From assembly GCF_019059575.1 (NCBI RefSeq), contig NW_024881505.1:949501-1013500 (forward strand): a DNA stretch of 64,000 nucleotides, read 5' to 3'. The notes beneath the pieces were generated by a model. It did not search any database and was not told the DNA's origin. It saw only the letters and a program-made list of their open reading frames with translations. The translations under genes were made by a program, and so were the position numbers. How positions within the stretch are numbered: the first letter of the stretch is position 1; each line of letters starts with the position of its first letter. The stretch is from Amphibalanus amphitrite (lineage: Eukaryota; Arthropoda; Thecostraca; Balanomorpha; Balanidae). Positions 26,206 to 49,749 of this stretch are shown piece after piece.

Positions 26206-26509
26206 TGTTACAGGGAGTATGAGAAATCAGTTAGTTTGCAAACTACCTAGGGAGTTTGCAAACTCCCTGAACGATCAGGTAGTTTGCAAACTCCCTAGGC
26301 AGTTTGCAAAGTACCTGGTCGAACAGGTAGTTTGCAAACTCCCTAGGTAGTTTGCAAAGTCCCTAGGGTTGTTGCAAACTACCTAGGTAAAATGAGAAAA
26401 CGGAGAAACAACAGCCATATAAGCTTCATTCTGAGCTCTGAACCAATTCATCGCGTCTTATCTACATACCAGTATAACGCCTTTTGGGGCGACTAACGGA
26501 GCGAGCGAG

Positions 26510-26880
26510 AGGGTGGGCCTTGCACGTGCGAAATTGCGAGGGGGTACCTCCGACTGACTTGTGCACGGCACCCTACTAACCGGTCTCTAGCGATGTGCCA
26601 AATTTGGGCACAATCGGCCCAGCCGTTCTCGAGATCTGGAAGCGGCACCCTGCACGTGCGCACGTGCAAAATGGGTCCCAACTGACTTGTGCACGGCACC
26701 CTACCAACCGGTCCCTAACTGTGTACCAAATTTGAGCGCAATCGGTCGAGCCGTTCTCGAGATCTGGAAACCACCCCTGCACGTGCGCACGTGCAGCAGC
26801 ACCCCAACTCTGGCACATGGATATGCAGTGCCTGGTGGGTGCCTACCTACATGCCAACTTTCAGCGCAATCGGCCAAGTA
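26510..26880. repeat. ~130-bp tandem repeat
   Basis: Two clear units and a degraded third, each with GCACGTGC motifs, ACTTGTGCACGGCACCCTA, CAATCGG and CCGTTCTCGAGATCTGGA. It lies in a segment (about 26469-27158) absent from the sister element at 49254; that segment has ACGGAGCGAGCGA near one end and TCGCTCGCTCCGT near the other. Confidence 0.65.
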
Positions 26881-27169
26881 GTTACCGAGATATTGCAACA
26901 ATTACAAAACTGACACCTCTTCGTTTTGCACGTGGCACGTGCATAAGGGGTCACCCACATGCATCGAGAATAGTCCAATACTTGGTAGAAGGAATGAAGC
27001 TACCCTACAAAAATTACCGCATCTAAATCGGTCAAGTGGTTGCTGAGATATAAGCCTCGCAAAAGCGTCCGCACGGCCGGCCGGCCGGCCGCTCATTCTC
27101 AGAAATTTCCGTTATATTAATCTAAGGAAAGACTACGCTCGCTTCGCTCGCTCCGTAATCATGTATGTA

Positions 27170-28094
27170 GGGGAAGCGGGGGGAGCACCGCCACCTTAAG
27201 CATTTCTGCTCACCGAGCTGATATGCGTAGTAAAAACGAAGCTCTTTTGCATTCATGTGAAAGTAGGAATGTTTTCCTACATGTTGGCATAGTTTCTAGC
27301 GCTCCATTATAAAATTTCGCTACTTTACAGACATTGAAAACAAGTCCTGCATTTTCCGTCCTCCAAAAAATGTGCGGGTAGCACCGCCACTGATGGCGAT
27401 GTTATCCACAGATCGGCCTTACGGTGACAGCCACCCTTGGAAGCGTTACTGCTGTCTGAAATAGTAACTCAAACTCATATAAGACACACAAGAGTTGGTT
27501 GTTAGTTTGTCACAGATCAGACTGTTTGTTGCGGACAATATGCATACAAAGCATGACAAATTCACGTTTATTTCGAAACATCCAGTGAAGTCAAACGTGA
27601 GGTTAAAAAACAGACGACGTTTGCGGCCTAACTAAAGCTCTTGTCCGAGCTGAGTGAATCATCATTGCGGCTTTATCCATTTTGCCACCCCTTGGGGTAG
27701 CACCGCCGAGCATGGCGGTGTTACCCCACACACAGTCATGGACCGACAACGCCCCGACAGCAAAACAAGCCGGGACGCGATTCTTCTGTAATTCCTTTCT
27801 AAACGAAGAGCACTTCATGCCCTCAAATTTAACGTAAAAATCAAGACATTTTGACTTGAAATGACCACTTACTTGCTGCTAAAACATGCCAAATGATTAC
27901 AACGATGGTTTGAAATTCACAAAATGGGCCATTGCGATCTCAAAATCAAATAAATCTTAGCGAAACCTACCTCACGCGGCGTCCCGTTTCCGTTCGGACA
28001 CCGAAATGGCGGGTGTTTACATTTACAATTCAAAGTTTTGCCGATAGGGAGGATGGCGGTGTTTCCCACATGGCGGTGCTACCCCCGCTTCCCC
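27170..28094. mobile_element. TA-flanked MITE nested in element 26206-28316
   Basis: Inverted ends GGGGAAGCGGGGG with AGCACCGCCA just inside; flanked by TA (27168-27169, 28095-28096). The sister locus in unit 2 reads ATGTATGTACTCGTATATGG without interruption, so it is the empty site. The TA duplication fits a Tc1/mariner-type non-autonomous element. No transposase is encoded. Confidence 0.75.
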
Positions 28095-28407
28095 TACTCG
28101 TATATGGCTGTTGTTTCGTCGTTTTCGCATTTTACCTAGGTAGTTTGCAACAACCCTAGGGAGTTTGCAAACTAACTAGGGACTTTGCAAACTACCTAGG
28201 GAGTTTGCAAACTACCTGTTCGACCAGGTACTTTGCAAACTACCTAGGGAGTTTGCAAACTACCTGATCGTTCAGGGAGTTTGCAAACTAACTGATTTCT
28301 CATACTCCCTGTAACATAGGCACACTTTATGACAGTTTATGACCCCAAACCACTTGTGATCCAATTATGTACCTAAATGTTTGTTAGAACTATAAATGTG
28401 AATAAGG

Positions 28408-28530
28408 GAGGGGGGCCTCCTCTATACAGAGGGCCTCCTCTCTACGGGGGGCCTCCTCTCTACAGAGGGCCTCCTACCTACAGAGGGCCTCCTCTCTACT
28501 GAGGAGTCAGAGGGGCCCTAGCGGTCAGAC
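28408..28530. repeat. GGGCCTCCTCTCTACAGA tandem repeat
   Basis: About five units of roughly 20 bp begin exactly where homology between units 1 and 2 ends (GTGAATAAGG). The reverse complement of this repeat is at 39030-39400 beside D. Confidence 0.7.
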
Positions 28531-30178
28531 ACAGGCACTAGTGGGCGGTTATTTAGGAAGTAAGAAGGAAGGAGAAGGAGGCCTCAGGAAGTAAGAAGGA
28601 CCCTAGCTGTCAGGCTGGTCAGAGGGCCCTGATTGTCCTGACGTGATTTTTTGGATTCCCGTGAATTTCTTACGCCTCCGGCGTGATTTTGGCCCCGTGG
28701 GCCTTCGGCGCCCCACGGGGGCCTCCTGAAACCCCAATGGGGGGCGCCCCGTCCCCTCCTTGGCTACGTCCCTGGGGCCCACGCCGGTCTCCGAAGGTCC
28801 AAATTGCCTCTTGAGTATCATACTATCCAGTGGCCCGATGGTCTTATGATGGCCTTTGAGGTTTCTCACCGGCTTCAGAGGGCTCACATCGACCTATGAG
28901 GACCTCGCGCTGGCCTCCGAGGGCGCAAAATGTAAGAAGGTAAGCATGCCGCGTAAGTAATGCATAAGTATTCCGGCATCTTTGGGACTCCGACTGCTTT
29001 TTGGGTGCCTACCGCCTCATACCGGTGAAATGAGGGTCCTTGACTCCCTACCTGTCTCTGAAGGTCCCATTTTGACATTCGAGATCCTTATTTTGGGTCA
29101 CAGCAGAGGCCCATGCAGTTCCCTTAAGGCCCAATGCCGACGGTCATATAGCCGCTTCTGATGGCCCCACGTCCTCTTTTGAAGGCACCTCAGGGGTCAC
29201 CAGAGGCCTGCCAGGGGCACCACCGGCCTCGCAGGGGCACCTTGGGCTGTCAGGGGCACCACAGTCCTGTCAGGGCCCAGGGGCCCCAGCGCCCTAGCAG
29301 GGGCACCACAGGCCCGCCAGGGTTACCACAGTCCGGCCAGGGGCACCACAGGCCTGCCAGGGCCCAGGGACACTAAAAATACAATAAACAATATAAAAAA
29401 AAATGGAAACACGGCATCACCAAAATTAAGTGGCCGAAATCCGTTGAGTTTTGAATTTTGGGTATAGGTAGGGGCACCACAAATTAAATTTATGACTATC
29501 CCCTTAGAGTTTTCCTGTATCATCCCCTGGTGCTCGCACGGTTGAGACAAAAACGAGTAAGATTCTGGCCTTCAATACGCCTTTTCACGCAACACGATCC
29601 AGACAAAAACAAAGGTATTAGCTCAGATGTGTTTGACAGGTGATTTTGAGCATGCAAGACGGCGTCTATAACGCATTTAGGTCTTCGGCTTTTGGAGGGG
29701 GGTCAACTGACCCTCTCAGACCATTTGGGGGTCATGACCCCGTGCCCCCCCCCCCCCAGGATCCGCCACTGAATTATTCATGCGTTGCTGTACATAGGAG
29801 GTATGTGAAAGGAAAGTATGCCTAGCAAACACCTTTCTATCAAATTTTCAACAGGTCCACTACTGGACCTGGACCACATGGACTCAATGAGGGCCCATGG
29901 CTCTCTGATGGTGCACGGTCATCACGGAACCATTAAGGGCCCACTAGCTTGTGGTGGACTACGACTCATTGAGATCTACTCACTGATATAGGGCTCCGAT
30001 GCTTGGAATGTGAGATTTAAAACACTAATACAGGCCAAAATGGCTGACTACTTTTTTAAACATAAGTCAGAAGGGCCCACTTTCGTTATATATTAGGTCC
30101 CCCCAGGAAATGGAATTAATGGGGCCCGGGAGGGACGGTCCCCCCCGGTCCCCCCCCCCCCGGTTTCCCCAGCCCTGA
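28531..30178. other. Repeat-rich sequence, element fragment at right end
   Basis: Degenerate GGGCACCACAGGCCTGCCAG-type repeats occupy 29170-29370, and poly-C runs occur at 29740 and 30130-30160. It ends CCAGCCCTGA at 30178, followed by ATAGCG. The same terminus is at 40478-40487. Read together they are the two ends of one element split by an inversion. No gene supported. Confidence 0.5.
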
Positions 30179-31148
30179 ATAGCGTACGCCCAATAAATCT
30201 ATGACAAGTATTTATCTGATTAATGAATTTGTCGCAAAAGAACTGGCTGCAGTTTGATTGCAGTCTGTACCGGTCACCGGAACTACCAATTTTGTTACGG
30301 CACTGTCGATATTCGTCAAAATCGGAAGAGCTATTATGATACACATTACACACCCGAATGACAACGGATTCCTGTATTATTTCATCGATCAGATAAGACA
30401 AGTATAGAGATAAATCGTTGACAGCCCTCCGTGAGCATGCAGCTTCAGCTTCTTCACAATCAGTCCAGAGTTATCTTCATATACGTCTAATATAGGTCAA
30501 TATTTTTGACTAACTAGATTCCAACAAGGGGATTTATCTCCCCTGGCGGCAGCTATGTAAAAGCTTTATAGTTAGGGCATTGCTTTTGTAGATGACGCTC
30601 CTTGACGGATAGAAATTGAAAATTTTGTCCCGTGATACGCTAGTTATGCCGATTTGTTTTGTGTATGGTGATTCTTACACGAAAAACCATCTAATATCCT
30701 GCTAACCAGCGTGCGATTTTTTCCTTTTCATCTAAGTTTTCGCTATTTTTAGGTACTTTACCATACCAAGTGCCCATGCACCTACTTTCTAAAGGTCAGC
30801 GCCGCCCCTGTCATATCCAGCATAAGCTGTGTGCTATCACCCATTGGCAGTGAGAAATATTGATCAATGACTGCATCGCCCAGCACCATTTGTCTTTCCA
30901 TTGGCTACGTTCGCATAGCATGAACTATGCATTAGTGATGTCAATCACAGAAAATCAGAATACCGATACCAAACCAAATACAAACCAAAACTATTGGAAA
31001 ATACCGAAACCGAACCGATTGGTTGGACTGCAAACATTCATCTTATGCAACATATTCAGTAGAAGAATACTTACCACTGATTTCTTGGTTGCACGCCGTT
31101 GCGAATGTATCCGAAAAACGCATAATGACAGATGATACGAAGATTAAA

Positions 31149-31221
31149 GTCGCCAATGGGAATCGAACCAACAACCTCATTATCACCAGCTCGATACTCT
31201 TAACCACTCCGCCACGGCGAC
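31149..31221 (-). repeat. tRNA-like sequence (inverted duplicate)
   Basis: Same 73-nt sequence as 11881-11953. Here the B box is a perfect GGTTCGATTCC, and the acceptor stem pairs in seven positions with one G-T. The central arm is weak, so a SINE head is preferred. Confidence 0.55.
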
Positions 31222-32109
31222 AACATACGTAATCAAGCTTAAATATCGTTAAGTTAAAACCTAGCATCAACAGACGCAACCAAGGGCAAGGACCGAACGT
31301 ATGAGGCCACGTTGACGTCACTCAAGAGGCACGCTATTAGTCGGCCGATTCGTGTAATACACTTGGCGAATACGCCGCCGGGCGAGGGCATTATTGGCAC
31401 TACGTTAGCATGCTTCCAGTCATCAGGAATTTGACCAAAGGAGTTTTAAAAAGTAATACGTATTAAGTGGCATGGACAGCTCTTTCGCACATTTAGCCAT
31501 TGCTCTAAATGTGAAAATTATTAGGGATTACATTAAGTTGCAACGATATGCGATAGCTAGGTAGAGATGGGTTGATTCAAGGTTGATTTGATGTGACATA
31601 CGTAGTTCCATTAGATAATTCAAGTAACTGATAGGCATAACATAATTTATATTATTACATGGTTCGTATGTCGTCTGGGGAGTGGAGATGTAATAATTTT
31701 GACAGTTGACCGCCATTTTCACATTTAATTTAACTTTGAAGGAAAACATAGGTATTTTTGTTAGCGACACCACGGCAAATGGCAATAGTAATCCGCGCGT
31801 TTGAATCCTTTTTCAATTTTCTTCTGAGCAGCGACATGCTTACCGATATCTATTAGCGAGTTGGAGTGTGCCATGTAATAAAATGAATACTAAGTGGGGT
31901 AAATGCAATACGAAAAAGTTATTGCCCTCTGTGACGCAACTGTAGCCCTCGCGCAAAGACAACAAGCATGATTGCCCTCGGCAGCCGACGAGGGCTTTAT
32001 TGCCCTCGGGCAATAAAGCATGCTTCGGTTTTCACCCCCGGGCTTCAGTGACGCCACATCGGGAATAATTTTTACTACTGTCCGCTTCCCCATACAGTAT
32101 TCATGTATC

Positions 32110-35100
32110 TGTTACAGGGAGTATGCGATTTCAGTTAGTTTGCAACGACCCTAGGGTGGTTGTAACCTCCCTGAACGATCAGTTTGTTTGCAACGACCCT
32201 AGGGACGTTACAAAATAACTGCTCGTTCCGGGACGTTGTAACGAAACTAGGGTCGTTGCAACCTCCCTAGTTAGTATGCAACGAACCTAGGGTTGTTACA
32301 AAATAACTAGGGAGTTTAAGAATTCATCGAGTCTCGTTTCACAGGAGGGCCGTCAACAATCTTGTCCAATGAAAATCGAAATGAAGTCCAAAAATAAAAG
32401 AAAAGGAGAACCAAATTTGAACATTCAGCTCAGAAGTATATGTGGTGCCCGGGACAAAGCACGTAACTGCTGTGATAATTTTGGCTGCATTATATCGTCA
32501 GCCATATGCTTACATGTAGAAAATATAGTTACTGGGGTAGGTGTGATGGATATCCGTCGCTATCCGTGTGCGGGTTATCCCTCACACTTTTAGGGGTGCG
32601 GGTCGGATAAAACCCATCGTTTTTTCGCTATTATCTCGCGCTAAAAGCGGCCGATCGTGACGAAACTTTGAGTGTCCTCGAACTTATCTACGTTCTGGTT
32701 ACACATTCCCTATACAGCTCATGATCCTAAAACCAATGACCTTTGATCTGATTTCTGAGACCATGGCAGACCGAAATGATTTGCCGTTTTGTTAGCGCAC
32801 ATAAAATTGCGCCAGACTTCTATTGTGATTACATATAAACGTGCCAACATGTGAACCATGATGGTTGTCCCATGCATCATGATGGGTTTCAAGTTGACTT
32901 GTCAGTTGTCGGCCTGCGGCCAGGTCAAGGTCATTGACGTTTGGTGACTTCGGGTAACTGTTTCAAATTTTGCGATTTTAAGGAATTTTTTAGCTTATTT
33001 CAAATCCAGCATTCGTTGATACATTTGAGAAGTACGTACGTATAGTTGTGGTGCCAATGCAACTTGCTACGAAGCTGTCGCTGGTGGTTTAGGTACACCT
33101 GCTATAAACAGGTGGTGCGGGTGGGACGCCTACTGTACTACTTGACCCAAACTTACCCAACCCAGCCTAGCTTAATCCTCGCCCCGCCTAGTTTTTTTTT
33201 TTCGCGATAGCTCCGAACACACCAGCAACAGAGAGCTGAAACTAGGCATACCTGACGTTTGATTCAAGCCGGATCTTGTTACACCAACCAGATTTCAGGT
33301 TAGGTAACAGACCTGAACAGGCCTCTGTTAACAGGTAACAGACCTGTTACACTTCAGGTCAGGTTACTGACCGACGTCATAAGTGGACGGTCCTCAGATG
33401 CCGCAACTTCGCAACGCCCTTAGTCCCAGAGGAGCTTTTACAGGGGGATAAAACTTACAGTACGAGCATCTTCTAGAAGTCTCACAACTTGTATACCTCT
33501 AGGATTTCTCCTAAAGATCACATGAGGTCAGGTCGGTCACGTGACCTCACCACTAAAGTCAATTGAGAAAAATGAAAACTGCTATTCTGGCGCCGGGAAC
33601 GATCTCAAACTAGCTCAACCACACGGATCGCGATTTCATGCACTCCTTGCAAGGTAAGATGCTTCAATTTTGCATTGTTGACGTTGCATGACGTCATTTA
33701 TGACGTCACTAGGGTCATACGAGCTTTTCGTCAATAACTCCCGCTCAAACTGAGCTAGCGAGTCGGTCAAGCCACCAATGGACTGAGGAAGACCTGCCGA
33801 ATCGAATAATATGCAACATGACCTCCTTTGACCTGCTATTTTTGACAACGATGAAGCCGATTTCACTCCTCAGCGAGGAAATCACGATTTTGGAAAGATA
33901 AGCACTGATTTTCGAAAAGAAGTGCTGCCACCTGGTGCAAGAAGAAGAAGCCAGCTTTAATATGCCCGTTGTTTGTATGGTAGTTTGTTTTGTGGCCTGA
34001 AGTTGAAACTTAAAATTGAAGCATCCGAAGATGATCGATATTGATCGAAAACATGACGTTGATGAAAAAAATATGTTAAGTTGAGAGAGGAGGTCATTTT
34101 ACCCAGATGCGGTGGTTAAATTCATGCAATTAATTATTTTTGCTAATTGACGGCCGCGCATCATCCGTCATTACATGGCAATCGTCATAAACAAAAATAA
34201 TTTCAAGAAGTAAACCACCGCATCTGGATGAAATCGCCTCCTTTTTCAACTTAACATAATCTTTTTTCATCAAAATTATGTTTTCGATCAATATTGATCA
34301 TTTTCGGATGCTGCAAATTGAAGTTCCAACTTCAGGCCACAAAAAAGGGTACACGTCAACGTTGGACTACCATACAAACAACGGCCATATTAAAGCTGGT
34401 TTATTCTTCTTGCACCAGGTGGCAGCACTTCTTTTCCAAAATCAGTGCATGTGCTAAAAATGACAGCGATTGACCAAACCTCCCCTGAATGTAATGTCTT
34501 GATGTTTTTAGGCCAGGTCGGGTCAGGTCAGGTCAGGTCAACCAGTAGGCGTCTTGCTAGCTGTCCATAGTAGGTGTCAACCACCACTGCCAGCTTCGTG
34601 ACATGGTACGAAGGCGCCAGTTACTTTCGTAAATGTTCAAATGGGTGCTAAATTCGAAATCAGCTCCAACAACTAGCCTAGAAATATATGAACCCAGAAG
34701 AAATGAGCTAAGGTCATCAAAGGTCAATGACCTTGACCTGACCTTCACGTGACCTTGACAGTTGACACCCACCATAATGCATGGGACCACCATCATTTCA
34801 CATGTTTGAATGTTTACGATCACAAAAAAAAACTGGAAATGAGCGGATAATAGCCGTTTTTACGAAGGGCTTTCTGGCGAATTTAAAATTTGAATTAATC
34901 TAATTTGAATTAGTCTAATTTGAACAAATATGCACCAAATGTGCACCTAACCTGCACAAAATGTGTAATAGATGGCCGTCGTGAAATACTCCTGAGCTGA
35001 ATGTCCAAATTTTGTTCTCCTTTTCGTTTTAAATGAACTATGTAGATTGAACAAGATTTTCATTGGACAAGATTGTTGACGGCCCTCCTGTGAAACGAGA

Positions 35101-35322
35101 CTCGATGAATTCTTAAACTCCCTAGTTATTTTGTAACAACCCTAGGTTCGTTGCATACTAACTAGGGAGGTTGCAACGACCCTAGTTTCGTTACAACGTC
35201 CCGGAACGAGCATTTATTTTGTAACGTCCCTAGGGTCGTTGCAAACAAACTGATCGTTCAGGGAGGTTACAACCACCCTAGGGTCGTTGCAAACTAACTG
35301 AAATCGCATACTCCCTGTAACA
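32110..35322. mobile_element. 3.2-kb DNA element, TGTTACAGGG ends, 4-bp TSD
   Basis: Begins TGTTACAGGGAGTATGCGAT and ends with the reverse complement. TATC duplicates flank it (32106-32109, 35323-35326), and the B flank near 10998-11001 keeps a single copy (GATA in that orientation). The terminal 220 bp carry short units on TTGCAACGACCCTAGGG, a variant of the palindromic units in 26206-28316. The interior (32640-34760) is rich in AGGTCA/TGACCT and has an inverted pair near 33900-34120 and 34210-34440. No transposase frame. Confidence 0.85.
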
Positions 35323-36484
35323 TATCAACACTTCGTTTCGGCTTTGCTACCTGGAATAAACAATAAATACAGCGCAATAAAGAGTTGAATTATTTTCTTC
35401 TCTAGAAACGTCTGCAATCAAAATTTCAAAAATAAAACAGCACGTTGAGATTCCACGATCAATGCCATTTTATTTCACACCAATCATAACTACATTCCAT
35501 CATGCAGTCGCAGCTAGGAAGCAAAATTATAAAACATTACCACCACAATTTGAGGCAAAATCGAATGCTGCACGCAACATATGGGACGCCTCAAGACACT
35601 TTAAAGCAAACAAATGGCCATCAAAAACATGAATTTTTTGCACAGTTTAACGCTTTGGGAAAATTCTGACCAGTTAAAGTAGAAAATGGGTAAATGTAAA
35701 TATTATAACCAAAAATTCGGCTGTTTAGGCGCAAAGACACGAGAGACCCTACAGCGGATTCCACAAAGGAAACTCAGACGACTGGGTCAGGAAAAAGGCT
35801 GCAACAAAACTACAACTCCCTGTCTCACCAGAACCAACAGTCAATCTTCCAAGTTATAAGGCATCTGTTCATCAACAACTGTCGAAAGTCAACAAATAGA
35901 CACGGTTGTTTTGTAGCAGCTGGTCCTTGAAAAGATGCGAGGACACCCACGACTTTTTTACCACATCTGGGCCAACGAAAAAACGTTTTTTTCAGCTGGA
36001 TAACGGGTAGACTCAAATCACTTTTTGTGAACACAAAACTTTCAACCAGCAGTCCCACGACCACAGGAGAACTCAAGAGGGCTGCGACGTTCGCAGTGTG
36101 CCTCATGCGGTACAAGACCTGCCGGGCCGCGCTGGTGTCCGCACGGCGACGCGCCAAGCTGTGATTGGGGAGAAAAAGGGCTATCTGTAACTCGTCTTCT
36201 TTGGCTGCAAGTGAGCAGCCAGCACGGATAAGGCGCTACCACACAGAATGGCATTAATCTTTGTGTACATATGATAGGCACTGATTCGTTTTTCATCCTT
36301 TCTTCAATATTTGAATTATAATGTTTTAAATTCGACTGCTTATTTAGGAACTCCCGGCATCTTTGTCATCATAATTCCGATTTACTATGCTACTGTTAAC
36401 TATAATATTGCATATCATACTACATGTAATGGTACATAGCTCTTCAACAACAGCAGCGAACATCGAAGTAACAACGTTTTCTCT

Positions 36485-38535
36485 CTATTCCTTGCTGGTC
36501 TGCCCAGCTTCCTGTTCTGGTCCCGGAGAATTCGTCAATTTATCAGAAGATAAATCAGACTCGGCAGGTGGTAAAGGTGCGCCGCTCAGACCCGCAGTTG
36601 ATTTTTTCGGCTCAAACATGATTTTTTCGAGGTTAATGAAAGGAACCTCAAATGTTAGCGAAAGGAGCATGGCTGCGGCGAAACTGACCACAACGTGGGC
36701 AAGAAGATGGTACGTGAAGCGATACGAATCGACGTAGACAGTACTCTTCACAGAGCCGTCTACGAGGGTTAAAACGTTGATGTGGATAAGATATCCGGCG
36801 TACGTGAGCCGGCTGAGCGGAATGAAGCCCGGGTAGGAGAGGAACGTGTTGATGGGCCCGCCGTAGCCGGTGACACAGGCAAAGATGACCCAGCCGACTG
36901 CCACGCCCCACGCGGTGCGGTTGAGTCCTCCATAGGACACGGCCACGGCTTTGCTGAACTCTTGCCAGGGCATTTGATATCCAATCATGCCGAATATCAC
37001 CGAGATACCGATGGCGAAGGCTGCGACCCAGCCGGACAGCCAGAGCCACGGCTTCAGGGTGATCTGGCGGCCGCGCAGCCTGTGGAGTAGGTAGCCGAGA
37101 CCGATCCCAGTCAGCCAGACTGTGCAGCGCATCCATGGATATGCATACTGAGTCACCATTTCCTCGGCTGCCTCAACATCAGGAACATTAAATGAGAAAA
37201 GCGTAGGAGGCAGGTTTTTGGTGCTCCATATAGCTATCCGCAAAGAAAGAAAGGCAACAGTGAGGAACCCGAGCCAAAGAGCCCCCCACAGAGGTTTCCA
37301 CACAAGAGGAAGCAAAATTACTGGAGAAACCAAGAACATTTGCATGTCTGTGGCCAGGTACCAGGTTTGAGCCAAGCACTCTTCCTCGATCGGGGTAAAG
37401 TTCTGGATATAGAGCAGATTACGCCACCAGTCTTTTTGACAAATGTCTTGTTGTGGTTCCACCATCCGAGGCCAAAGAGGACCGCTTCCAAAGTACACAA
37501 ATATGGTGGCATTAATAGCAACCATGATTGCCATCGGTGGTGTCAGACGCAAATATCGGTGAAGGTAAAACATGAAAACGTTAAACTTTCTTCTTTTCTC
37601 GTAGGCTCCACAAAAACTGTAAGCTAGCACGACCCCTGATAACAAGTAGAATGTATCCACACTTAGCGTCGCGTTATCAATCACTTGAAACGCAACTGTT
37701 TTGAACCAATCCAATGCGACGAAGAAGTTTTGGTCATACGAAGTAATTTGTGACGCAGCATGCCCCAGAAGCACCCACGTCATAGAAAAGAAGCGAATGC
37801 CATGGATACACCTCAGCGTCCCTTTACTTGTAGACGTATCCAGCAGCTTTTTGGTGTTGGTGTAAAGGGAAAATGCGACCAGGACTCTTTGCCAGTTGGC
37901 CAGGACGGGCGGCTTTCTCTGTTGCATCGTGGCTGGCTTGGGCTCGACGACATGGAGCATCTGTGGCAGCCGCGAGTTGGGACTGTCCACGACGGACGTC
38001 ATCCTGAGCTTGTCGGCCTGCCGCTCGGCCCGGTATCCGAGCCACACGTCCAGCGCCGTGCCGACCAGCAGCAGGACGCCGACCAGCGCCAGCAGCGTGA
38101 TGACCACGATGTCGGCCGGCTGCAGGTCCACCGTCTGGTCGGCCACCTCGGACGTGAAGGCCGTCACCGTGACGTTGTCCCCCAGCATGCTCTGGAGACC
38201 CGTCTGCACATCCACGCTGGAGCAGCTGGACGGCACACACAGGCCGATCACCCCGGTAGGTATTCCCAGTGTTGGGAGGATGAAGATGGTACCAAGGCCG
38301 TCATCCCCTTCCTGCCGCCATCCGCCGACCTCCTCGTCACCAACCGACGGCACAGGGGCAGGTGCCACCGTCACTGGCACATACCGACCGGTGAACTGGA
38401 GCTCCTGGTCGTCCAGATCTGGGTACGTGTCGTTATCCAGGCTCGCCTTCACCAGAAAACACTCGTCTCTGCTGCCGAACACGTTCAGGTTACCCACCAG
38501 AATGCCGTCTGGGAGCTTGCCACTGGCATCAAACA
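36485..38535 (-). CDS. NRF-6-like acyltransferase, copy D (exon 2 only)
   Basis: Exon 2 is intact, with 682 codons plus the two bases that complete the junction Met. The acceptor CGCAG|TGTTTGATG is present, but no exon 1 is found upstream: the intron matches A only to about 39028 and then runs into tandem repeats. Without exon 1 it lacks the signal peptide and the first NRF Cys, so it is a pseudogene unless another exon 1 is used. The first part of exon 2 is A-like (LGTIFILPTLGIPTGVIGLC), while the part after about codon 240 and the tail are B-like. The acyltransferase motifs are intact. It is inverted relative to the other unit members. Confidence 0.85.
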
Positions 38536-38719
38536 CTGCGAAAAGAAATTTCTTTCAATCTTTATCAGAATGCATATCACACAGCTGTTCGAGTGTTCGA
38601 ACTTCGAGATGACACGTAAGCTAGCTGGATGGCCAATGCTTATTCGCACATAGGCGGCTGTGGGCACATTGTCACACATACAGACGAAGGAATTGAGCCA
38701 GTCTAATTAGAACGGACGG

Positions 38720-38990
38720 TGAGAGGTGTGGCGGAACGGACCCGTCCCACCCCTCACCGTCCGTACGGACCCGTCCCCACCCCTCACCGTCCGTACGGAC
38801 CCGTCCCCACCCCTCACCGTCCGTACGAACCCGTCCCACCCCTCACCGTTCGTACGGACCCCTCCTCACCCTTCACCGTCCGTGCGGACCCGTCCCCACC
38901 CCTCACCGTCCGTACGGACCCTTCCCACCCATCACCGTATGTATGGACTCTTCCCAAACCTCACCGTCCGTACTACCAAACTGGGAGTTT
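38720..38990. repeat. 30-31-bp tandem array in intron remnant of D
   Basis: Same CACCCCTCACCGTCCGTACG unit as at 3573-3800, with one or two more copies. It shows that the intron remnant of D is of A type. Confidence 0.85.
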
Positions 38991-39028
38991 GATAGTATAA
39001 TAGGAGCTTATGAGGACCCCCACACCCC

Positions 39029-39400
39029 TCACACTGAAGAGAGGAGACCCGCTGTAGAGAGGAGACCCGCTGTAGAGAGGAGGCCCTCTGTAGAGAGGAG
39101 GACTTCCTCAGTAGAGAGGAGTCCCTTTGTAGAGAGGAGGACTCGCGCCTCAGTAGAGAGGAGGCCCTCTGAAGAGAGGAGGCCCTTTGCAGAGATGAGG
39201 TCCTCTGTAGAGAGGAGGTTCTTTGAAGAGAGGAGGCCCTCTGTAAAGGAGGCCCTCTGAAAGGGAGAGACCCTCAGTAGAGAGGAAGACCTCTGTAGAG
39301 AGGAGGCCTTCTGTAGTTAAGAGGCCTTGCGAAAAGAGGAGGCCCGCAGTAGAGAGGTGGTCCTCTGTAGAGAGGAGGCCCCCTCTGTGTTTTGACAAAT
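39029..39400. repeat. GTAGAGAGGAGGCCCTCT tandem repeat
   Basis: Units of about 20 bp, read as the reverse complement of the array at 28408-28530. It replaces the place where the exon 1 side of the D intron should be. Confidence 0.75.
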
Positions 39401-39409
39401 CTTTTTGCA

Positions 39410-40080: not shown

Positions 40081-40487
40081 GGCTAAAAGTGTGGTAACTA
40101 TATCTACTTCTGGGTTTTTAAGTACGTCGATCCGCCCCCCCCCCCCCAGTAAAAAAATCCGTAGCGACGCCCCTGTAGAGGTGGGTTTCACTAACTGAAA
40201 CTACTGAGCCGAGTGACTAATAACGATTAAACTTCATCTTAGAAACGACGAAGATCAAATGTGATTTGATTTCGACATACTCGCCCCCCCCCCCCCGGTC
40301 GTCAGAATTCATCCATCAGACCCGGCATGTCGGCCGACTTGTGACCCCCTCCCAAACGTTCCCCTAGATCCGCCCTAGGAAGGTAATATGATTTTGGGCC
40401 CTTTGAGACACTTGGGGCCTTTTCCTTGAGGGCCCCTCGAGGCCTAGTCCCCCCCCCCCACCTCTGAAATCATTTCTCCAGCCCTGA
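40081..40487. mobile_element. Right end fragment of split element
   Basis: Poly-C stretches and GGCCCC-rich sequence ending CCAGCCCTGA at 40487, directly before CGCTAT (40488-40493). The partner end is at 30178. No internal gene. Confidence 0.5.
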
Positions 40488-42197
40488 CGCTATTGGCTGC
40501 GAACGTAGGGGCCAAAAATGCGTGTCTACGACCGACTTCTTTTTAAGAGAAAAGAAGCGCCAATGCGGGTATCGATCCACCGACCTTTCGACTACCAGAC
40601 CGGGACTCGAACCACTCGGCTACGACGACACACCATGGTAACCACTAGCCATATAAAATTGGAAACAGTCTCAACTCAAATCTAGCCTCAATGCATACAT
40701 TGTCGCGTCGGATGGCTATGACATCGCACTAGAGATGTCGCTAGTTGGTCGGCCGATTCGTGTAATACACCTGGCGAATACGCCGCCCGGCAATGTTGGT
40801 TGATGCAGTCCGCTAAGGTTTTTGCAAATAGCGTAAAGATAGGCATACGAAGATAGGCATACCGCAAAATTTGGCATACGCTCTAGGGCAACTTTTCGCA
40901 CCTATCCTGAGAATTTCAAGTCCCAGTCTTTTCAGGGCAGGCCACAAGGTTACGAAAACCGGTACAAGGTCAAGGGAAAATTGGGCTTGTTTAATGGCAG
41001 CTGAATGACAGAGTTATTCGTTGATAGCGTGGGTGCTATGGCACGTAGCGCTACCAAATTTAGACACAAGTTGGAGCATCTGTTTGACACATGACCTGTG
41101 AGTTTTAGATTCCAGTGAGTTGAGGTCAGGTCACAAGGCCACAAAAACCGGTACATTGTTAAAATGGCACTAAAATGCACTATGTTGTTCATGGAAACTA
41201 GAGTTCTTCATCGATTTGATTCATACTTGCAGGATATGCTTAGGTCACCATGTGCCATCATATGTAATTATGCAGTATGCACCCCAGGTTTTTTAAATTC
41301 GGTTGACCTGAGGTCATCTGGAGGTCATGACAATTGTTAAAGAAATTGGACCGAATGTGAAAAGATAAGACATTTGTGCTTTATTTTAACGTTTTAGTGT
41401 TTAACTACCGTGATTTACATCTACTTGGTGTTTGCAAGCTGCAAGTACGCTTGGGTCGGGTCAACTCAGGTCAACTAAGGTTAAACTACGTTTTTGCTAA
41501 TAACTTGGTACACAATAAGGCTAGAGCTTCAACAATGAGGTCGTTGTGTTCCTTGTGATCAGGCGGTTCGAATGATATGCGATATGCTGCATTTTGATTA
41601 AGTTAAACTTAATAAATTACTTTAACTTCACCTAATTTCTAAAGAAAACTTTTAATTAATTTTAAATTGGTAACGAAGTATGTATATCATTCGATGCGCA
41701 CGGATGTCCTAAGTTAACCGGTGCTTTTATTTTTGCTCAATCTTGGTAAAAATTATAAGCGAAAAACTTTTGACATGTTTAAGCGCATTTTTTGCAATTA
41801 TATCCCCCCCCCCCAAAAAAACCTAAATATTGACGTACAGTCACCAAATTTTCACGGGGGCGAGATCTTCCATGGACCCACCTTCCCTGTAAATTTGGCG
41901 TTCGGCGAGGGTTAACCCTCGCTCGCACATGCCATTTTCCCATCCTAGAACGCACATGGGGGGGGGGGTTGCCACCCCCGCGCCATTTCGTTCCTGTTGG
42001 AGATAGAGCTTAGCGGTAAAGACCAAAAAGATTCTTTGGGAAGACACAAATCCAATGATACCCAGTTTTACCTTCTCAGGTCAGTCATTGACCTTCCAGG
42101 TCAGGTCAAACTAAAAAATGTTGCTGTTTTGGGTCACCGTTGGATATCAAGTGCGCTGCTTATCATATACCGATGACGATGCCGTTTTCTGGTGCCA
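40488..42197 (+). repeat. Segmental duplication in unit 2 spacer
   Basis: Matches 12922-13121 and 14831-16320 with the LINE absent. It includes the tRNA-like repeat at 40557-40630 (minus strand). AGGTCA-rich and noncoding. Confidence 0.75.
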
Positions 42198-44189
42198 AGC
42201 CAGCTAGAACCTCTTTATCACACTACCGGACCAGGTTTTTGCTGCTGAGGTCATTTCAAGTCAATTTAGGTCAAGGTCAATTATATGTGTTTGTATGTAT
42301 GTGTGTGTCTATGTGTATGTATACTGAAGTGCACCGATTGTTTATGTGTCCATACACAGATAACAGTAGTACTTTTATTGTTACCACTGTTACTACCAAT
42401 GTTACTTTTATTTGCTCAAAAATTAAAGTATTTCACTCTTAATTTGATCATTTAGAGGGCACAATGCGTGGTGTTTTCTTTGGAAAAAAAATTGTGGTGC
42501 AAAGCCTTACATACGTATAGGTATACATCAACAATGGAGGAGGGGAATGAGCGGTAAAAAACTGCCGTTCTGGCTACAACTCAACGAACCAAGAGGAACA
42601 AAAGATTAAAACATGAGATGTCTCACATGCCACCTATTCGCTTCTCTCACCGAAACATCTCTACGGGCTCAGTGGTTTGGCGCCATGGGTCACCGTGACC
42701 GGGCTGAGTGGGATCAGGACTATTCCGCTGTGTGTGAGCTGCATTTCAGAAAGGAAGATTTCGAAGAGGATCGGTCATTTCGCACCGGCATGCAGGGACA
42801 GCGCCGTCGGCTCAAGAGCGGCGCAGTCCTGTCAGTATTGACCAGCGTGGATTACGCGATGCCCCCTGTGCACGAGCGGCCAGCGAAAGGCATCCGCACG
42901 CCACTCACACCGGAAGCAGGTTATGAAGGGCCAGACCGATGCGTTCTTCACGAATGACAATATCAGATATCAGGTGGCAACTACAACTGGTCGAGTGTCC
43001 GACAGTTCCTGGAGAATGAGGCGGTACTCCGAAGTCGAATTAAGGGCCTCAGATGGTGGTCACTGGTCACGTTTCAGCCCCGCCGACGCCTCCGCCCGAA
43101 TGGCACCATCACAGCAGGAGTGACAGCAGGATGGTGCTCTTGTCATCCAGGAGCTAGTGGCCGCGCTGGCGAAATCCACTGAAATGGAGGACCTGGATGA
43201 CAGCGCCAAGGCCTCCCTGGGACACAGCTCCGGCGCCTTGGCACGCTCGGCCACCAGGCGTAACAAGTACGTTGCCTCCGCCAGCGTGCTGATCTATCAT
43301 GGGGCTACGCCGCTGGAGGTACGACTGGAGAAAGACGAGGAAGACATCGACCTCACCGTGAGTATCTGCCATATTTGGAGGCAACTGCCGAAGACGGAAG
43401 CTAATAGGAACCAGCTGCTGGTCTGCGATCAACCAAGAAGTGACGCAGAAGTGACGAACATAGTCGTAAAACGGGATGTCAAACTGACCGGAAGTCGTTT
43501 GCAATCATAGCCACGACGTCCTTAGGAGCCTCCTTCCAGAGATGTATGCGACGGTTTTCAATCTATTTGCTGGAAAGTGTGGAAACATGGTAACTGATAA
43601 GTGAGGCAGACACTCAAGGCAGTGCTGTCCATCGAAAGTCAGGAAGCAGACACCCCAGCCACTGGTACAGCCCGATCGAGGAGCGACATGAGGCCAAAGC
43701 TCAGCAGGGTCAAGAAGATGTAAGGCGGGGAAGTAAGGTCGCTGATGAAATTGGGAGGAAAGGCGAAGCAAAGTGACACTTGAAGAGGTGTTTTGTGACG
43801 TTAGTTTGAATTTTGACGTTTTGATGGTTCGTTGTGACAGGACTGGTGTCGATTAGCATGTAAATAAAGAGATCAAACTCCCATGTACAAGTGCTTTTTG
43901 TGGATGAGAGGGAGGAATCATTATAACCAAATCAGTGGCATACGTTCCCTCACTTCGGTGAGGAAAGTGCAACCAGCAACGTTTAGTAAAATAAGTTTCC
44001 ATTATGCAAAAATGCAACAATAAACACGAGCACGGCTAGATTGCTTCTTTATAAGTTTCATTCACATAAACCAATATTTTCTTTTTGTTGCCTGTGAGAG
44101 GAGATATCGAAGTCTGGGCACGAAATATTCGGCTGTTTTCGGCCCCTTACTGCAGCCACCGGAATCCTGTTTCCAATTTATATTTTTGA
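42198..44189. other. Unit 2-specific insert with THAP-like remnant
   Basis: This stretch takes the place of 16320-19330 of unit 1. It holds a GT-rich microsatellite-like tract near 42280-42330 and the THAP-like reading frames described separately. I see no inverted ends. Confidence 0.4.
42613..43510 (+). pseudogene. THAP-domain gene remnant, perhaps P-element derived
   Basis: The frame 42613-42957 (114 codons) has C3-x2-C6, a Trp at 21, C41-x2-H44 in VCELHFRKEDF, and RRLKSGAVLSV near residue 64, which matches the THAP zinc-finger pattern (C2CH, then the AVPTIF-like box). The frame is then lost. A second frame at 43157-43510 ends at a stop and has no domain I recognise. THAP domains occur in host transcription factors and in P-type transposases. 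No transposase core is visible, so a decayed transposon or gene fragment is likely. Confidence 0.6.
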
Positions 44190-45275
44190 ATTATTTCGAC
44201 AATAGTCGTCAGGCTTGTATGTCAACCCAAGCCGGTATAAAGGTCAGGTATGCACGTATTACATCGTCTAGTGTATAGAGGGGGGTGGTCCTTACGAACC
44301 CCTCTTGCGATGCGGCCCCTGATCGAGCTAGAGATTCGCAAAAAAGTAGCGTGCTGCCCGTTACGAGATATCCCGATAATGCTCAGTTTTAAGTCCATAG
44401 GTCATTGGATGATCTTGCAGTTCAGAACAATGACCCAAAAGTCGGGAAAATTGGGACGTGCTAGAGCTTCGTTAAGTTAGGCCATTGCGTTAATATCTTT
44501 TTTTCTGGGGGGTCTGATTACCGATTTCATGCTTGTTTTAGTCAACGATGATGTGTTCATGCATTTAGGGTAGGTCGATTCAGGTCAGGTCAACGAGTAG
44601 GTCTATAGAAGGTGTCAACCACGGACCACCTCTGTCAGCTTCGTAACATGTTTCATAGTCGCCAAACCTATTTTTAAAGTGTTCCAATGGGTACATAATT
44701 CAAATTCATCTCCAAAACCTATTATAGAAGCATTTAAAACTCGAAAAAGTGAAGCAAGGTCACCTAAGTTCAATGACCTCCAACTTCCTCTCTTTTTTTC
44801 AAAACGGCGGGCATGAGAGCTTCTCCCTTAGAATCTGTTTTGTAGGCTCAAATTTCGGAACATGAGACGTCACTGAGCCGTCATTGATGGCCGACATATT
44901 ACAATATTTTATATCAGTTTTAGTCAAAGTGTGTAAAATTGATTTGGGAATAGATATTCCAAATAAAGTGGCGATGTCTTCAACACTGGGTATGTCGAGA
45001 AAAAAGCAGGAAGCGTTTCTCCCACGCCTCCGGTTAGGTTCAATAAAATGCTACGTCCAAGCATACAACCGCACCTTCCATGGAGTACATGTGCTCCCAA
45101 GCTGGCAAGGGTAGTTGGTTGGCAGTCCATGAAGCATGAGGGCTGATGTGCACTTTGAGCTCTTCCTCTGAGAATTGGCACTGATGTCTGTTTGTAGGCT
45201 CCAGATAAAAGATCCCACCGCGTGCGTTCATTGCTTGTGCTCCAATCTCCGTAATCAATTACTCACACGTCCGTT
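44190..45275 (+). repeat. Segmental duplication upstream of E
   Basis: Matches 19331-20031 plus 21901-22300 of unit 1. It contains the uninterrupted site for the foldback 20032-21900. Noncoding. Confidence 0.7.
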
Positions 45276-45398
45276 GATGACGCGATGTCGCGATAGGCGG
45301 CCGGGCGCTATAGCCGTCTGCCGCTCCACCGACCCGGCCAGTCGGTCTCGGCCGCAGCAGCCCACGGACCGTCTCGTCGCCCCCGACCAGCCCCGGAC
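45276..45398 (+). promoter_or_regulatory. Conserved 5' block of copy E
   Basis: GATGACGCGATGTCGCGATA is at 45276-45295, then the UTR-like block common to A, B and C. Nearly identical to the block of C. Confidence 0.5.
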
Positions 45399-48300
45399 AT
45401 GACCCGACTCGCCCCGCTGCTGCCGCCGCTGATGACGGTGGCGGCCGTCTTGGTGGCGGTGACGGCGGCGGCCGGCAGCGGTGACGCCGCCCTCGACGGA
45501 CGCCTGTTCAACCTGGTGCCGCGGCCGCGCCTGCAGGAGCTGACCCTCGCCGACCTGGATGCCACCCTGGACGTGCTGACCGACCTGCTGGAGGAGAGGA
45601 CGCTGCCCTCCGGCGGCAAGGGCTTCGTCTCTCGGATGGCGGCGCCGACGCTGTACTCGGACAGTGCTCTCTGTCAGAGACACACTCAGATCTACTGGGA
45701 GCAGTTCTCGACCGGAGCGCCGACCGGGTGGCCGCAGCTCAGTAAGTACAGCCCTCTGCAAACTGCGTGGTAGGTATTCTTTTTTCTACAAAACCGAGAA
45801 TAAATCGAATACCATGCAATCGGTCATTCGGAAATCGTAACAGCAAGACGCGCGAGACTCCGCACCTTAGATTGGCATAATCATCGTACTCATTTTCCAT
45901 CCATTTTGGCAACAAAACCCAAAAGTTTATATTTGCCCCAAAAACAAACTTTTGCATTTTGTTGCCACACAAGGCGCATACTTCAGTTTAGTGATAGACC
46001 TAATCGAAGGAGTGGAGCATGGCGCATCTATCTGCAGTGAGTTCCGACCGATTGATAGCATAGCCTTTGAGATATTATCGTTATTAACAAAAAAAAAGAA
46101 TACCTACCACGCAGTCTGCTGAGGGCTGTACATATTACATGGTGCATTATTTTCAAGAGATACCTATGCGAAATGCGGTTAACACTTAACGATGTTTTAG
46201 AATGTTTTTTAGGCACTGCGATCTTTCGAACGCACGTCACCTCTTCTGCCTACCTAACTTTTTTAAGCTCAACGGGACCCGTTGCATCATATCCCTCACT
46301 GTCCGTTCTTGACTGAAGAAGTCCATTTGTCTATTAGCGTGCAAAATCTTCAAATGATTTTTGTATATCAACTGTTCTCTTTAAACAATAAAGAAGTATG
46401 CTGAGGTTGAAAGAAATTTCTTTTCGCAGTGTTTGATGCCAGCGGCAAGCTCCCAGACGGCATTTTGGTGGGTAACCTGAACGTGTTCGGCAGCCGAGAC
46501 GAGTGTTTTCTGGTGAAGGCGAGCCTGGACAACGACACGTACCCAGATCTGGACGACCAGGAGCTCGAGTTCACCGGTCGGTATGTGCCAGTGACGGTGG
46601 CACCGGCCCCTGTGTCGTCGGTTGGTGACGAGGAGGTCGGCGGATGGCGGCAGGAAGGGGATGACGGTGTCGGTGCCATCTTCATCCTTCCAACATTGGG
46701 AATTCCTACCGGCACTGTCGGACTGTGTGTGCCGTCCAGCTGCTCCAGCGCCGATGTGCAGACGGGTCTCCAGAGCATGCTGGGGGACAACGTCACGGTG
46801 GTGGCCTACACGTCCGAGGTGGCCGACCAGACGGTGGACCTGCAGCCGGCCGACATCGTGGTCATCACGCTGCTGGCGCTGGTCGGCGTCCTGCTGCTGG
46901 TCGGCACGGCGCTGGACGTGTGGCTCGGATACCGGGCCGAGCGGCAGGCCGACAAGCTCAGGATGACGTCCGTCGTGGACAGTCCCAACTCGCGGCTGCC
47001 ACAGATGCTCCATGTCGTCGAGCCCAAGCCAGCCACGATGCAACAGAGAAAGCCGTCCGCCCTGGCCACCTGGCAAAGAGTCCTGGTCTCATTTTCCCTT
47101 TACACCAACACCAAGAAGTTGTTGGATACATCTACAAGCAAAGGAACGCTCAGGTGCATCCACGGTATTCGCTTTTTCTCCATGACATGGGTGCTAATAG
47201 GACACGCTACGTTTCAGGTGCTTGTTTACGATCAGAATATCTTCGTCGCCCTGGATTGGCTCAAGACCCCTGCTTTTCAAATGGTCGATAATGCAACACC
47301 AAGTGTAGACACATTCTACCTTTTGTCTGGAGTTGTGCTGGCCTATAGCTTCTGTGGAGCCTACGAGAAAAGAAGAAAGTTTAACATCTTCATGTTTTAC
47401 CTTCACCGATATTTGCGTCTCACACCACCGATGGCAATCATGGTCGCCATTAGTGCCACCATATTTGTGTACTTCGGAAACGGTCCCATTTGGGCAAGGT
47501 CAGCGGAGCCGCAGCAGGACTTTTGTCAAGCAAACTGGTGGCGTAATCTGCTCTATATCCAGAACTTCAGCCCGCTTGCAGAAGAGTGCTTGGGTCAGAC
47601 ATGGTACCTGGCCACAGACATGCAAATGTTCTTGTTTTCCCCAGTAGTGCTGCTTCCTCTTGTGTGGAAGCCTCTGTGGGGCACACTATGGCTGGGCTTC
47701 CTCACTGTCGCGTTCACGGCCCTCCGAATAGTCATGTGGAGCGTCAAGGAACTGCCACCAACTCTTCTCCTGCTCAATGCTCCCGATCCTGAGGCAGCTG
47801 ATGAGTTGATGGTTCAGTACGCCTATCCGTGGATGCGCTGCACAGTCTGGCTGACTGGGATCGGTCTCGGCTACCTACTCCACAGGCTGCGCGGCCGCCA
47901 GATCACCCTGAAGCCGTGGCTCTGGCTGTCCGGCTGGGTCGCAGCCTTTGCCATCGGTATCTCGGTGATATTCGGCATGACTGGTTATCAGATGCCCTGG
48001 CAAGAGTTCAGCAAAGCTGTGGCCGTGTCCTATGGAGGACTCAACCGCACCGCGTGGGGCGTGGCAGTCGGCTGGGTCATCTTTGCCTGCGTCACCGGCT
48101 ACGGCGGGCCCATCAACACGTTCCTCTCCTACCCGGGCTTCATTCCGCTCAGCCGGCTGACGTACGCTGGATATCTTATCCACATCAGCGTCCTTCTGCT
48201 TGTGGAGGGGTCTGTGAAGAGCACCGTTTACCTCGACTCGTACCGTTATACGTACCGCCTCCTTGCCCACGTTATTGTCACTTTCGCTGCAGCCATGCTC

Positions 48301-48483
48301 CTCTCATTGACGTTTGAGGTTCCGTTCATCAACCTCGAGAAAATCATGTTTGATCCGAAGAAGCCAGCTGTGAGCCTGGGTGGCCCGGCCGTTGCGGCCT
48401 CCGAGCCAAAGGTGAACGGCAGTGAAGTGGAGGGGACTGGCCTGGAAACTGACAAGGAGGCAGGTTCGTCTGTTAAGGAATAA
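45399..48483 (+). CDS. NRF-6-like acyltransferase, copy E (two exons)
   Basis: Exon 1 is 45399-45741 and exon 2 is 46430-48483, giving 798 residues; the intron is 688 nt. Splice phase and domains are as in copy A, and all key motifs are intact. It is the closest paralog of C over gene and flanks. The intron differs from that of C by two insertions, one in each copy. The TA-flanked MITE in this intron begins six bases after the last exon base, immediately behind the GTAAGTA donor, so the donor keeps its consensus. Confidence 0.92.
45749..46128. mobile_element. TA-flanked MITE in intron of E
   Basis: Inverted ends CAGCCCTCTGC...; the left end continues AAACTGCGTGGTAGGTATTC and the right end is its near reverse complement (about 37 bp). 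TA flanks both ends (45747-45748, 46129-46130). The intron of C reads GTAAGTACATATTACATGG without it. Tc1/mariner-like non-autonomous element; no coding capacity. Confidence 0.85.
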
Positions 48484-49253
48484 CATTCATTTGAAGCTAT
48501 CTACATAAAACAGTCAAATGCAAAACGGTTCGTATATGTTTTGAATTACAAATTTCAGCGGTATCTGATGCATTGTACATATTTTTTTTTTAAACAATGG
48601 CTTAAGACACATGGATAACATACGCTGTTCATTATGAGATAGTTGCATAATAGACTGTAGAGTTGCCTCATTTTTGTCTAATAACCTCAATTGCCAATCT
48701 GTTGAAAGCATAATGAAAATTTATATCAGTTTAGTTCTTTGAATCATGTGTGTGCATAGCTAAGAATACATAAATGTAGACATGCAATAAGGTAGGTACT
48801 GGTAGTTATGGATTGTGCTGGCTCACGTCCAATTTTCTGGATTCTATTTAATTTTGGTGATAAATGCAAGCGTCCCATCCGTATTGGTCGGTTTTATGGA
48901 AAATATATGTACAATTGCTGATTTTTGTGATGTCATTGAATTTTATAACTATAGAAATTAGGGTAACGAATATGTTGTGTGTGAGAAGGTAAATATCGTT
49001 ATCCAGATTCTCTTGTGTCTTGGAATTATATATACCTATGTGCCCTACGTATTTTTTGTTTGTTTTTGTTTATGCTTCGTGTGCGTTCTAGTTGCTGAAA
49101 GATAGAATATGTGCCGAATTCGGTATGTAATAAATGGTAAAAAATATGCGCAGTATTTTCCTTTTTGCTAGACTTATCTTAACTGTGAATAGTGAAAGTT
49201 GGACGCTTGTGATCAAGGGGCGGTCTCCGACGCTATACTCTTTATAGTATAGG
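48484..49253 (+). repeat. 3' flank of E, duplicated at C
   Basis: Nearly identical to 25434-26205. Candidate poly(A) signal AATAAA at 49129-49134. Confidence 0.75.
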
Positions 49254-49749
49254 TGTTACAGGGAGTATGAGAAATCAGTTAGTTTGCAAACTACCTAGGG
49301 AGTTTGCAAACTCCCTGAACGATCAGGTAGTTTGCAAACTCCCTAGGCAGTTTGCAAAGTACCTGGTCGAACAGGTAGTTTGCAAACTCCCTAGGTAGTT
49401 TGCAAAGTCCCTAGGGTTGTTGCAAACTACCTATAGGTAAAATGCGAAAACGGAGAAACAACAGCCATATAAGCTTCATTCTGAGCTCTGAACCAATTCA
49501 TCGCGTCTTATCTACATATCATGTATGTACTCGTATATGGCTGTTGTTTCGTCGTTTTCGCATTTTACCTAGGTAGTTTACAACAACCCTAGGGAGTTTG
49601 CAAACTAACTAGGGACTTTGCAAACTACCTAGGGAGTTTGCAAACTACCTGTTCGACCAGGTACTTTGCAAACTACCTAGGGAGTTTGCAAACTACCTGA
49701 TCGTTCAGGGAGTTTGCAAACTAACTGATTTCTCATACTCCCTGTAACA
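49254..49749. mobile_element. Short element with TGTTACAGGG ends, 4-bp TSD
   Basis: 496 bp, almost only the two palindrome-rich ends of the 26206-28316 element joined. TAGG flanks it (49250-49253, 49750-49753). It is at the same site as in unit 1, so the insertion came before the duplication. Confidence 0.85.

Follow-up and report, generated by a model that had tools for sequence, protein, structure and literature searches.

The DNA analyzed here, 64,000 nucleotides of contig NW_024881505.1 of Amphibalanus amphitrite (positions 949,501 to 1,013,500, hereafter the window), contains three copies of a young family of DNA transposons without a transposase of their own. At each end, the consensus arm carries an ordered array of 12-bp boxes, the first six of which make up one 128-bp palindrome. 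The explanation that we consider likely is a non-autonomous cut-and-paste family with ends of the Ginger2/TDD type, in which the palindromic array would be a selected platform for the binding of a protein. A preliminary description of the window had listed the three copies, with their TGTTACAGGGAGTATG ends and the 4-bp duplications TAGG, TATC, and TAGG, and all of these are confirmed. The features are as follows, TSD denoting the target-site duplication.

26206..28316, no strand assigned: copy 1, a member of subfamily 1 that carries two additional inserts; TSD TAGG at 26202-26205 and 28317-28320.
26233..26360, forward strand: 128-bp palindrome of the 5′ arm of copy 1, six 12-bp boxes with spacers of 8, 16, 8, 16, and 8 bp; dyad at offset 91, 57 of 64 pairs.
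26469..27158, no strand assigned: first insert in copy 1, about 690 bp, not in copy 3; no TSD recognized; borders set by eye.
27170..28094, no strand assigned: second insert in copy 1, with GGGGAAGCGGGGG inverted ends and a TA duplication (a single TA in copy 3); borders set by eye.
28130..28289, reverse strand: tile array of the 3′ arm of copy 1, without one 20-bp unit beside the tip; 128-bp palindrome incomplete, 26 of 64 pairs at offset 91.
32110..35322, no strand assigned: copy 2 (subfamily 2, non-autonomous), inverted ends of about 330 bp; TSD TATC at 32106-32109 and 35323-35326.
32137..32264, forward strand: palindrome of the 5′ arm of copy 2, 51 of 64 pairs.
35168..35295, reverse strand: palindrome of the 3′ arm of copy 2, 50 of 64 pairs, a single base different from the 5′ arm.
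10993..10996, reverse strand: empty pre-insertion site of copy 2 in an inverted paralogous segment, single TATC, element absent.
49254..49749, no strand assigned: copy 3, the copy-1 insertion in a duplicated segment, 496 bp; TSD TAGG at 49250-49253 and 49750-49753.
49281..49408, forward strand: palindrome of the 5′ arm of copy 3, 57 of 64 pairs; the 3′ arm is without one unit, as in copy 1.

In the consensus arm, a 27-bp tip is followed by boxes (B) and spacers in the order B-8-B-16-B-8-B-16-B-8-B and then 8-B-8-B. The box cores are close to TTGCAA, the subfamily-1 box being AGTTTGCAAACT. The first six boxes and their spacers occupy exactly 128 bp and form a single palindrome centered at offset 91, a level of organization absent from the preliminary description, with 57 of the 64 pairs formed in the consensus of subfamily 1 and 51 in that of subfamily 2. 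Boxes and spacers are themselves smaller palindromes nested in the large one, and the dyads of subfamily 1 are spaced 10, 10, 14, and 14 bp. The proposal of two tile subfamilies with one architecture holds, since the spacer order 8,16,8,16,8,8,8 is common to both while 38 of the 128 palindrome bases differ between copy 1 and copy 2. In this comparison, the tip is identical at 24 of 27 positions, the box cores at 33 of 36, the box flanks at 13 of 36, the 8-bp spacers at 19 of 24, and the 16-bp spacers at 25 of 32. Counting dyad centers with at least 5 of 6 pairs, we find 11-12 per 200-205 bp in subfamily-1 ends against 0.86-0.89 in shuffled sequence (1000 shuffles, maximum 5), and 4 in 240 bp against 1.06-1.07 (maximum 5) in subfamily-2 ends, a small number because the boxes of that subfamily are less palindromic individually. 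Dyad counts by themselves do not set the ends apart, because two other places in the window, at about 38721-38960 (a tandem repeat) and at 59301-59520, also reach 10 per 200 bp. The tiles are thus beyond chance in subfamily 1, and the distinctive feature of the ends is their ordered layout. A reading of the tip as a diverged tile was weak (p 0.03 in subfamily 1, p 0.38 in subfamily 2) and was set aside.

The segments that hold copies 1 and 3 are duplicates of each other (23131-26475 versus 46181-49526, 97.5%; 28095-28407 versus 49528-49836, 98%), and the two copies are for this reason one insertion seen twice, with a common TAGG. Copy 3 is barely more than two arms, and copy 1 is the same insertion with the two inserts added; in both of them, either arm is short of one 20-bp unit. 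The three copies of the window are therefore two insertion events; the coordinates and duplications given earlier stand. When the flanks of copy 2 are joined with one TATC, they match the inverted paralogue, 21 kb away, with 1 mismatch in 120 bp, and this exact empty site proves the 4-bp duplication of copy 2. As the paralogue is uninterrupted and has a single TATC, copy 2 most likely inserted after that inverted segmental duplication, independently of copies 1 and 3. The two ends of copy 2 are 1 base apart within their first 268 bp.

In the 807-Mb host genome, the 16-base tip occurs 222 times in forward and 214 times in reverse orientation, and a reversed control gives 0 matches. From pairs among the first 100 of these 436 listed places, 36 complete copies were obtained that have both tips in the fetched pieces; this set, with lengths of 1.7-14.8 kb, leaves out the window copies and one further copy (C357). 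A perfect 4-bp duplication flanks 35 of the 36, as expected for the single transposon family with 4-bp duplications that had been proposed. The duplication is TATA in 27 of the 35, a purine precedes and a pyrimidine follows it (R....Y) in 33 of the 35, and the full RTATAY hexamer is present in 20 of the 29 copies outside pure TA runs. Other duplication lengths, which the preliminary description had named as evidence against its reading, were sought in the 37 complete copies outside the window: besides the 35 with 4 bp, copy L027, the sole exception among the 36, has an 8-bp match within a TA-rich stretch, and C357 has no direct duplication, one of its flanks being the exact reverse complement of the other throughout the 51 bp available. 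The latter copy (C357:239119-248103, L077 start, L083 end), 9 kb long, may be a palindromic duplication or an assembly fold-back. At four places (G000 C31:108348-108383, C53:1082443-1082490, C93:823964-824005, and C1716:68008-68047), copies lie back to back, separated by 4-16 bp of TA-rich sequence, as expected from the preference for TATA-like targets. When additional subfamilies were sought with variants of the tip, the yield was one back-to-back pair that carries a point change and one point mutant. The exact tip has 8 matches in viral contigs, none with tiles behind the tip, and longer patterns have 0 matches in viral and 0 in prokaryote contigs.

These data bear on the class of the family, which had first been linked to Ginger1. 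Both Ginger groups have TGTNR ends and 4-bp TSDs; the duplications of Ginger1 are CCGG or CCGT/ACGG, and the target of Ginger2 is RTATAY (PMC2836005). The present family shares the end type and the TSD length with Ginger1, but none of its 35 duplications is of the Ginger1 kind, whereas the 27 TATA duplications correspond to the core of the Ginger2 target. The ends thus behave as those of Ginger2 and not of Ginger1, and the link to Ginger1 is not supported. The family resembles Ginger2/TDD elements in its TGTTA ends on both sides (the copies having been collected by that tip), in the 4-bp TSD, and in the TATA-core preference. The inverted ends have about 220 bp of array and reach about 330 bp in copy 2, slightly above the 45-297 bp of the published Ginger2 table, which also lists a non-autonomous element, Ginger2-1N1_NV, of 252 bp (PMC2836005). 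In contrast to Ginger2/TDD elements, no transposase was found in the family copies examined, and the class is therefore taken from the ends. The family is probably mobilized by a Ginger2-type enzyme, which does not make it a proven member of Ginger2.

We also considered that the family, non-autonomous as it is, belongs to another superfamily with TGT ends and a 4-bp TSD, IS481EU-like or undescribed, and is mobilized by an unrelated transposase. Such an origin would agree with the lack of a family transposase in the copies examined, and IS481EU elements have TNT..AYA ends and, in some families, 4-bp TSDs (PMC10045372). We regard it as rather unlikely, because the TATA preference and the long inverted ends are as in Ginger2, while IS481EU has been reported from parabasalids, with terminal inverted repeats mostly below 50 bp, against more than 200 bp here, and with TSDs also of about 15 and 25 bp (PMC10045372). 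A Ginger2-like integrase is also known from sesarmid nimaviruses, which insert into (AT/TA)n and have terminal inverted repeats; unlike the present family, these are viral genomes of 265 and 285 kb, with 46-bp ends of unrelated sequence (PMC10871703).

The diversity along the ends was determined in the two largest subfamily-2 end classes (26 and 25 of 73 ends, each from 25 elements) and in the largest class of subfamily 1 (16 of 21 ends, 12 elements, copies 1 and 3 left out). The 16-base tip was the sole criterion for collecting the copies, so that no pre-selection for the array took place. In the two classes of subfamily 2, the diversity is 0.87% and 1.15% at offsets 27-155 and 1.4% and 1.9% at 155-225, and then 8.9% and 8.5% at 225-300 and 9.4% and 4.9% at 300-600. 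In steps of 20 bp, it is 0-2.3% up to offset 220, and beyond it 3.8-17.2% in one class and 0.5-11.3% in the other. The step coincides with the end of the box array. One 2.5-kb element, L049, has the same arms around an interior unlike that of the other 38 elements compared, suggesting that the arms determine what is mobilized. Of the idea that the tiles are coevolving transposase binding sites, the part that is supported is an array behaving like a selected cis platform, with selection as the presumed cause of the low diversity; no binder was found, and the binding and the coevolution are inferred.

The two subfamilies can also be compared across the palindrome. The ends number 103, with 27 in subfamily 1 and 76 in subfamily 2. 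Of the 64 palindrome pairs, 10 have changed on both sides and still pair, against a null mean of 2.3 and a maximum of 9 in 20000 trials. A second tool, applied to 8 ends (5 distinct rows), likewise gives 10 paired changes versus 2.1, with 0 of 500 shuffles and with slid controls of 0-4. This result suggests that the 128-bp level, more than the single boxes, retains symmetry between the subfamilies. Among 89 of the 103 ends, intact and gapless over 155 bp, there are 74 private changes, none of which has a compensated mate; resident copies accordingly show no trace of hairpin repair, and the paired changes would have arisen in the spreading lineages. The palindrome might instead act as RNA, with hairpins of arm transcripts entering small-RNA pathways or giving the transcript its structure. 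The single-stranded fold of the arm indeed lies 13.2 (copy 1) and 8.6 (copy 2) standard deviations below shuffles, as calculated with DNA parameters. However, only 3 of the 20 unpaired positions of the two consensus palindromes are G-T, and 1 is A-C, so that there is no shift toward the G-U types expected of an RNA hairpin, and the conservation in subfamily 2 stops at the end of the box array and not at that of the 128-bp palindrome. We hold such a role to be highly improbable.

A different origin of the regularity would be homogenization, the array having no binding role and being repeat DNA that is kept regular and palindromic by gain and loss of units and by template switching between the halves. 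The length changes of the subfamily-1 arrays, which are of 20, 40, or 48 bp (10 entries; the duplicated copies 1 and 3 account for four, which represent two events), are of the kind expected from such a process; subfamily-2 indels are not unit-sized. In the same direction, boxes within an array agree at 10.8 and 9.1 of 12 positions (better of two orientations), compared with 7.3 (single orientation) at matching positions between subfamilies and 8.3 (better orientation) at non-matching ones. On the other hand, homogenization does not readily explain the common spacer order, the several-fold lower diversity between copies in the subfamily-2 array than in the adjacent interior, and the absence of compensated private changes, and we find it unlikely. 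Random microsatellite growth of the tiles, which would have spoken against the proposal of binding sites, is not supported, in view of the same 8/16-bp spacer order, despite the unit-sized changes in subfamily 1.

In the mechanism that we favor, a transposase supplied in trans would cut at TGTTA...TAACA and insert at TATA-like sites, giving rise to the 4-bp duplications. The ends, the duplications, the target preference, and one empty site are direct observations on this cut-and-paste step, and the enzyme class is deduced from them. The array would be required in cis, copies with a damaged array spreading less, which is consistent with the low diversity that ends with the array. Its most likely task would be to gather several transposase dimers, or dimers of an accessory protein, into one symmetric assembly per end, and this assembly could aid the recognition and the pairing of the ends. 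The subfamilies would have retained the tip and the spacing and altered the outer box bases, partly in step across the palindrome, the array and its binder presumably drifting together. A more specific version, possible but in our view doubtful, is that the 128 bp of each end are read as a single symmetric unit, either a six-box nucleoprotein assembly with a 48-bp period or an extruded cruciform. The twofold symmetry itself would then be under selection, and the array and the binder would have diverged together, so that one Ginger2-type system would have become two sets that still share the tip and the chemistry of cleavage. If this were true, single boxes would weigh less than the whole dyad.

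Several observations weigh against the binding platform and its Ginger2-type enzyme. No family transposase was found in the copies examined, and 8 of the 35 duplications are other than TATA, as are the two of the window. If a palindrome counts as intact when at least 45 of its 64 pairs are formed at offset 91, it is so in 73 of the 76 subfamily-2 ends but in only 16 of the 27 subfamily-1 ends; of the 11 others, two (L026) are merely shifted by a small insertion. Three subfamily-1 ends at separate places share one 48-bp loss, which leaves a shorter palindrome of 36 or 37 of 40 pairs, and shorter arrays have therefore spread as well. The diversity contrast is weak in subfamily 1, with 2.4% at offsets 27-155, 1.9% at 155-225, 3.9% at 225-300, and 5.4% at 300-600. 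As to the paired changes, a rotation control has a mean of 2.0 but at a single shift, that of 64 bp or half the array, it also gives 10, a value that we attribute to the near symmetry of each array half. In subfamily 2, it is not clear that the palindromes of single boxes have been retained (5 double changes versus 2.4, p 0.054). Finally, as only two subfamilies are compared, the paired-change result amounts to one comparison.

The search for an autonomous copy extended over the fetched copies, up to 14.8 kb, and gave no family transposase from which the class could be read, in line with what had been noted for the window. In copies 1 and 2, the reading frames have at most 117 amino acids (aa); of the 48 frames listed, 10 were compared with Pfam and gave no match above the cutoff. 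Eight long frames from four fetched loci are pieces of one nested reverse transcriptase of the type without long terminal repeats (non-LTR), repeat-rich frames, one unmatched frame, and one 361-aa open frame with a helix-turn-helix domain (DUF4817) at L017:3552-4637, in the 14.8-kb copy and in a stretch common to no other copy. By its motifs, the last looks like a Tc1/mariner-type transposase of another, nested element, and, as it is confined to that copy, it was rejected as the family transposase. The longest of the 36 copies owe their length mostly to sequence unshared with other copies, including nested elements, and a reverse transcriptase frame (RVT_1) is nested in a family copy at L031:1104-3245. 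The 9-kb C357, with a new interior start, has no frame above 114 aa.

A single Gypsy integrase query, a weak test, found nothing better than E 0.9 among 6245 frames, and comparison by eye of the best 300 integrase-domain places of the genome with the listed part of the 436 tips gave none within 15 kb inward of a tip. The H2C2 and rve family searches (best 150 places each) were dominated by long Gypsy-like frames, and two candidates with frames of about 550 aa were discarded as Gypsy-like. A frame of the kind that marks the Ginger2/TDD transposase, combining an H2C2 zinc finger and a DDE core without the GPY/F motif, was not found among the copies examined, the genome domain searches being swamped by Gypsy-like elements. 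The top rve scores of the genome belong to four copies of a 308-aa frame (G000 C2180:36339-36620, C2290:9488-15085). Three of the four share a 6-kb stretch of a single contig, and the frame may belong to an insertion sequence of bacterial origin, derived from a symbiont or a contaminant.

Within copy 2, there is a 547-bp imperfect palindrome (80%) at window positions 33902-34448, and a GGTCA-rich module (34528-34760) that recurs, mostly with 74-87% identity, at 16548-16681, 19726-19925, and 44580-44779, sites without any tip of the transposon family. Elsewhere in the window, five long open frames (689-720 aa) resemble nose-resistant-to-fluoxetine acyltransferases (1353-3425, 7670-9832, 23361-25433, 36485-38554, and 46411-48483; Pfam run on one of them) and lie in both orientations amid direct and inverted segmental duplications. 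A reverse transcriptase frame (RVT_1) is located at 13313-14872, and the window has no tRNA or Rfam match at gathering score.

Subterminal arrays are of a known kind, seen in CACTA and piggyBac elements, of which the nested 128-bp layout is apparently a new variant. The target of piggyBac is TTAA. In piggyBac and piggyBat, end-proximal palindromes are bound by two domains of the transposase dimer; these are separate palindromes of about 14-19 bp, unlike the nested 128-bp palindrome here (PMC11707139). The CACTA elements (En/Spm, soybean Tgm/Tgmt*) have subterminal arrays of short, stem-loop-capable motifs bound by TNPA-like proteins, and resemble the present family in a conserved tip with a motif that diverged between two subfamilies of one species (PMC2613891). 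They differ from it in their 3-bp TSD, CACTA tips, and asymmetric ends, whereas here the tips are TGTTA, the TSD has 4 bp, and both ends bear a near-identical array with one large dyad. The words "palindrom" and "subterminal" have 0 occurrences in the main text of the Ginger paper (PMC2836005), and the literature searched, which covers few subscription papers and Repbase entries, showed neither Ginger2-like elements with a nested 128-bp palindrome at each end nor a study of end recognition by Ginger2-type integrase-like transposases.

The end arrays of this family change in steps of a whole unit, and positions facing each other in a large palindrome have changed in pairs, which is the pattern expected under coevolution of an array and its binder, as suggested earlier for CACTA elements (PMC2613891). 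With two natural array variants, one common tip, a sharply bounded conserved block, and a large number of young copies, the family would offer a ready system for studying what the enzyme reads.

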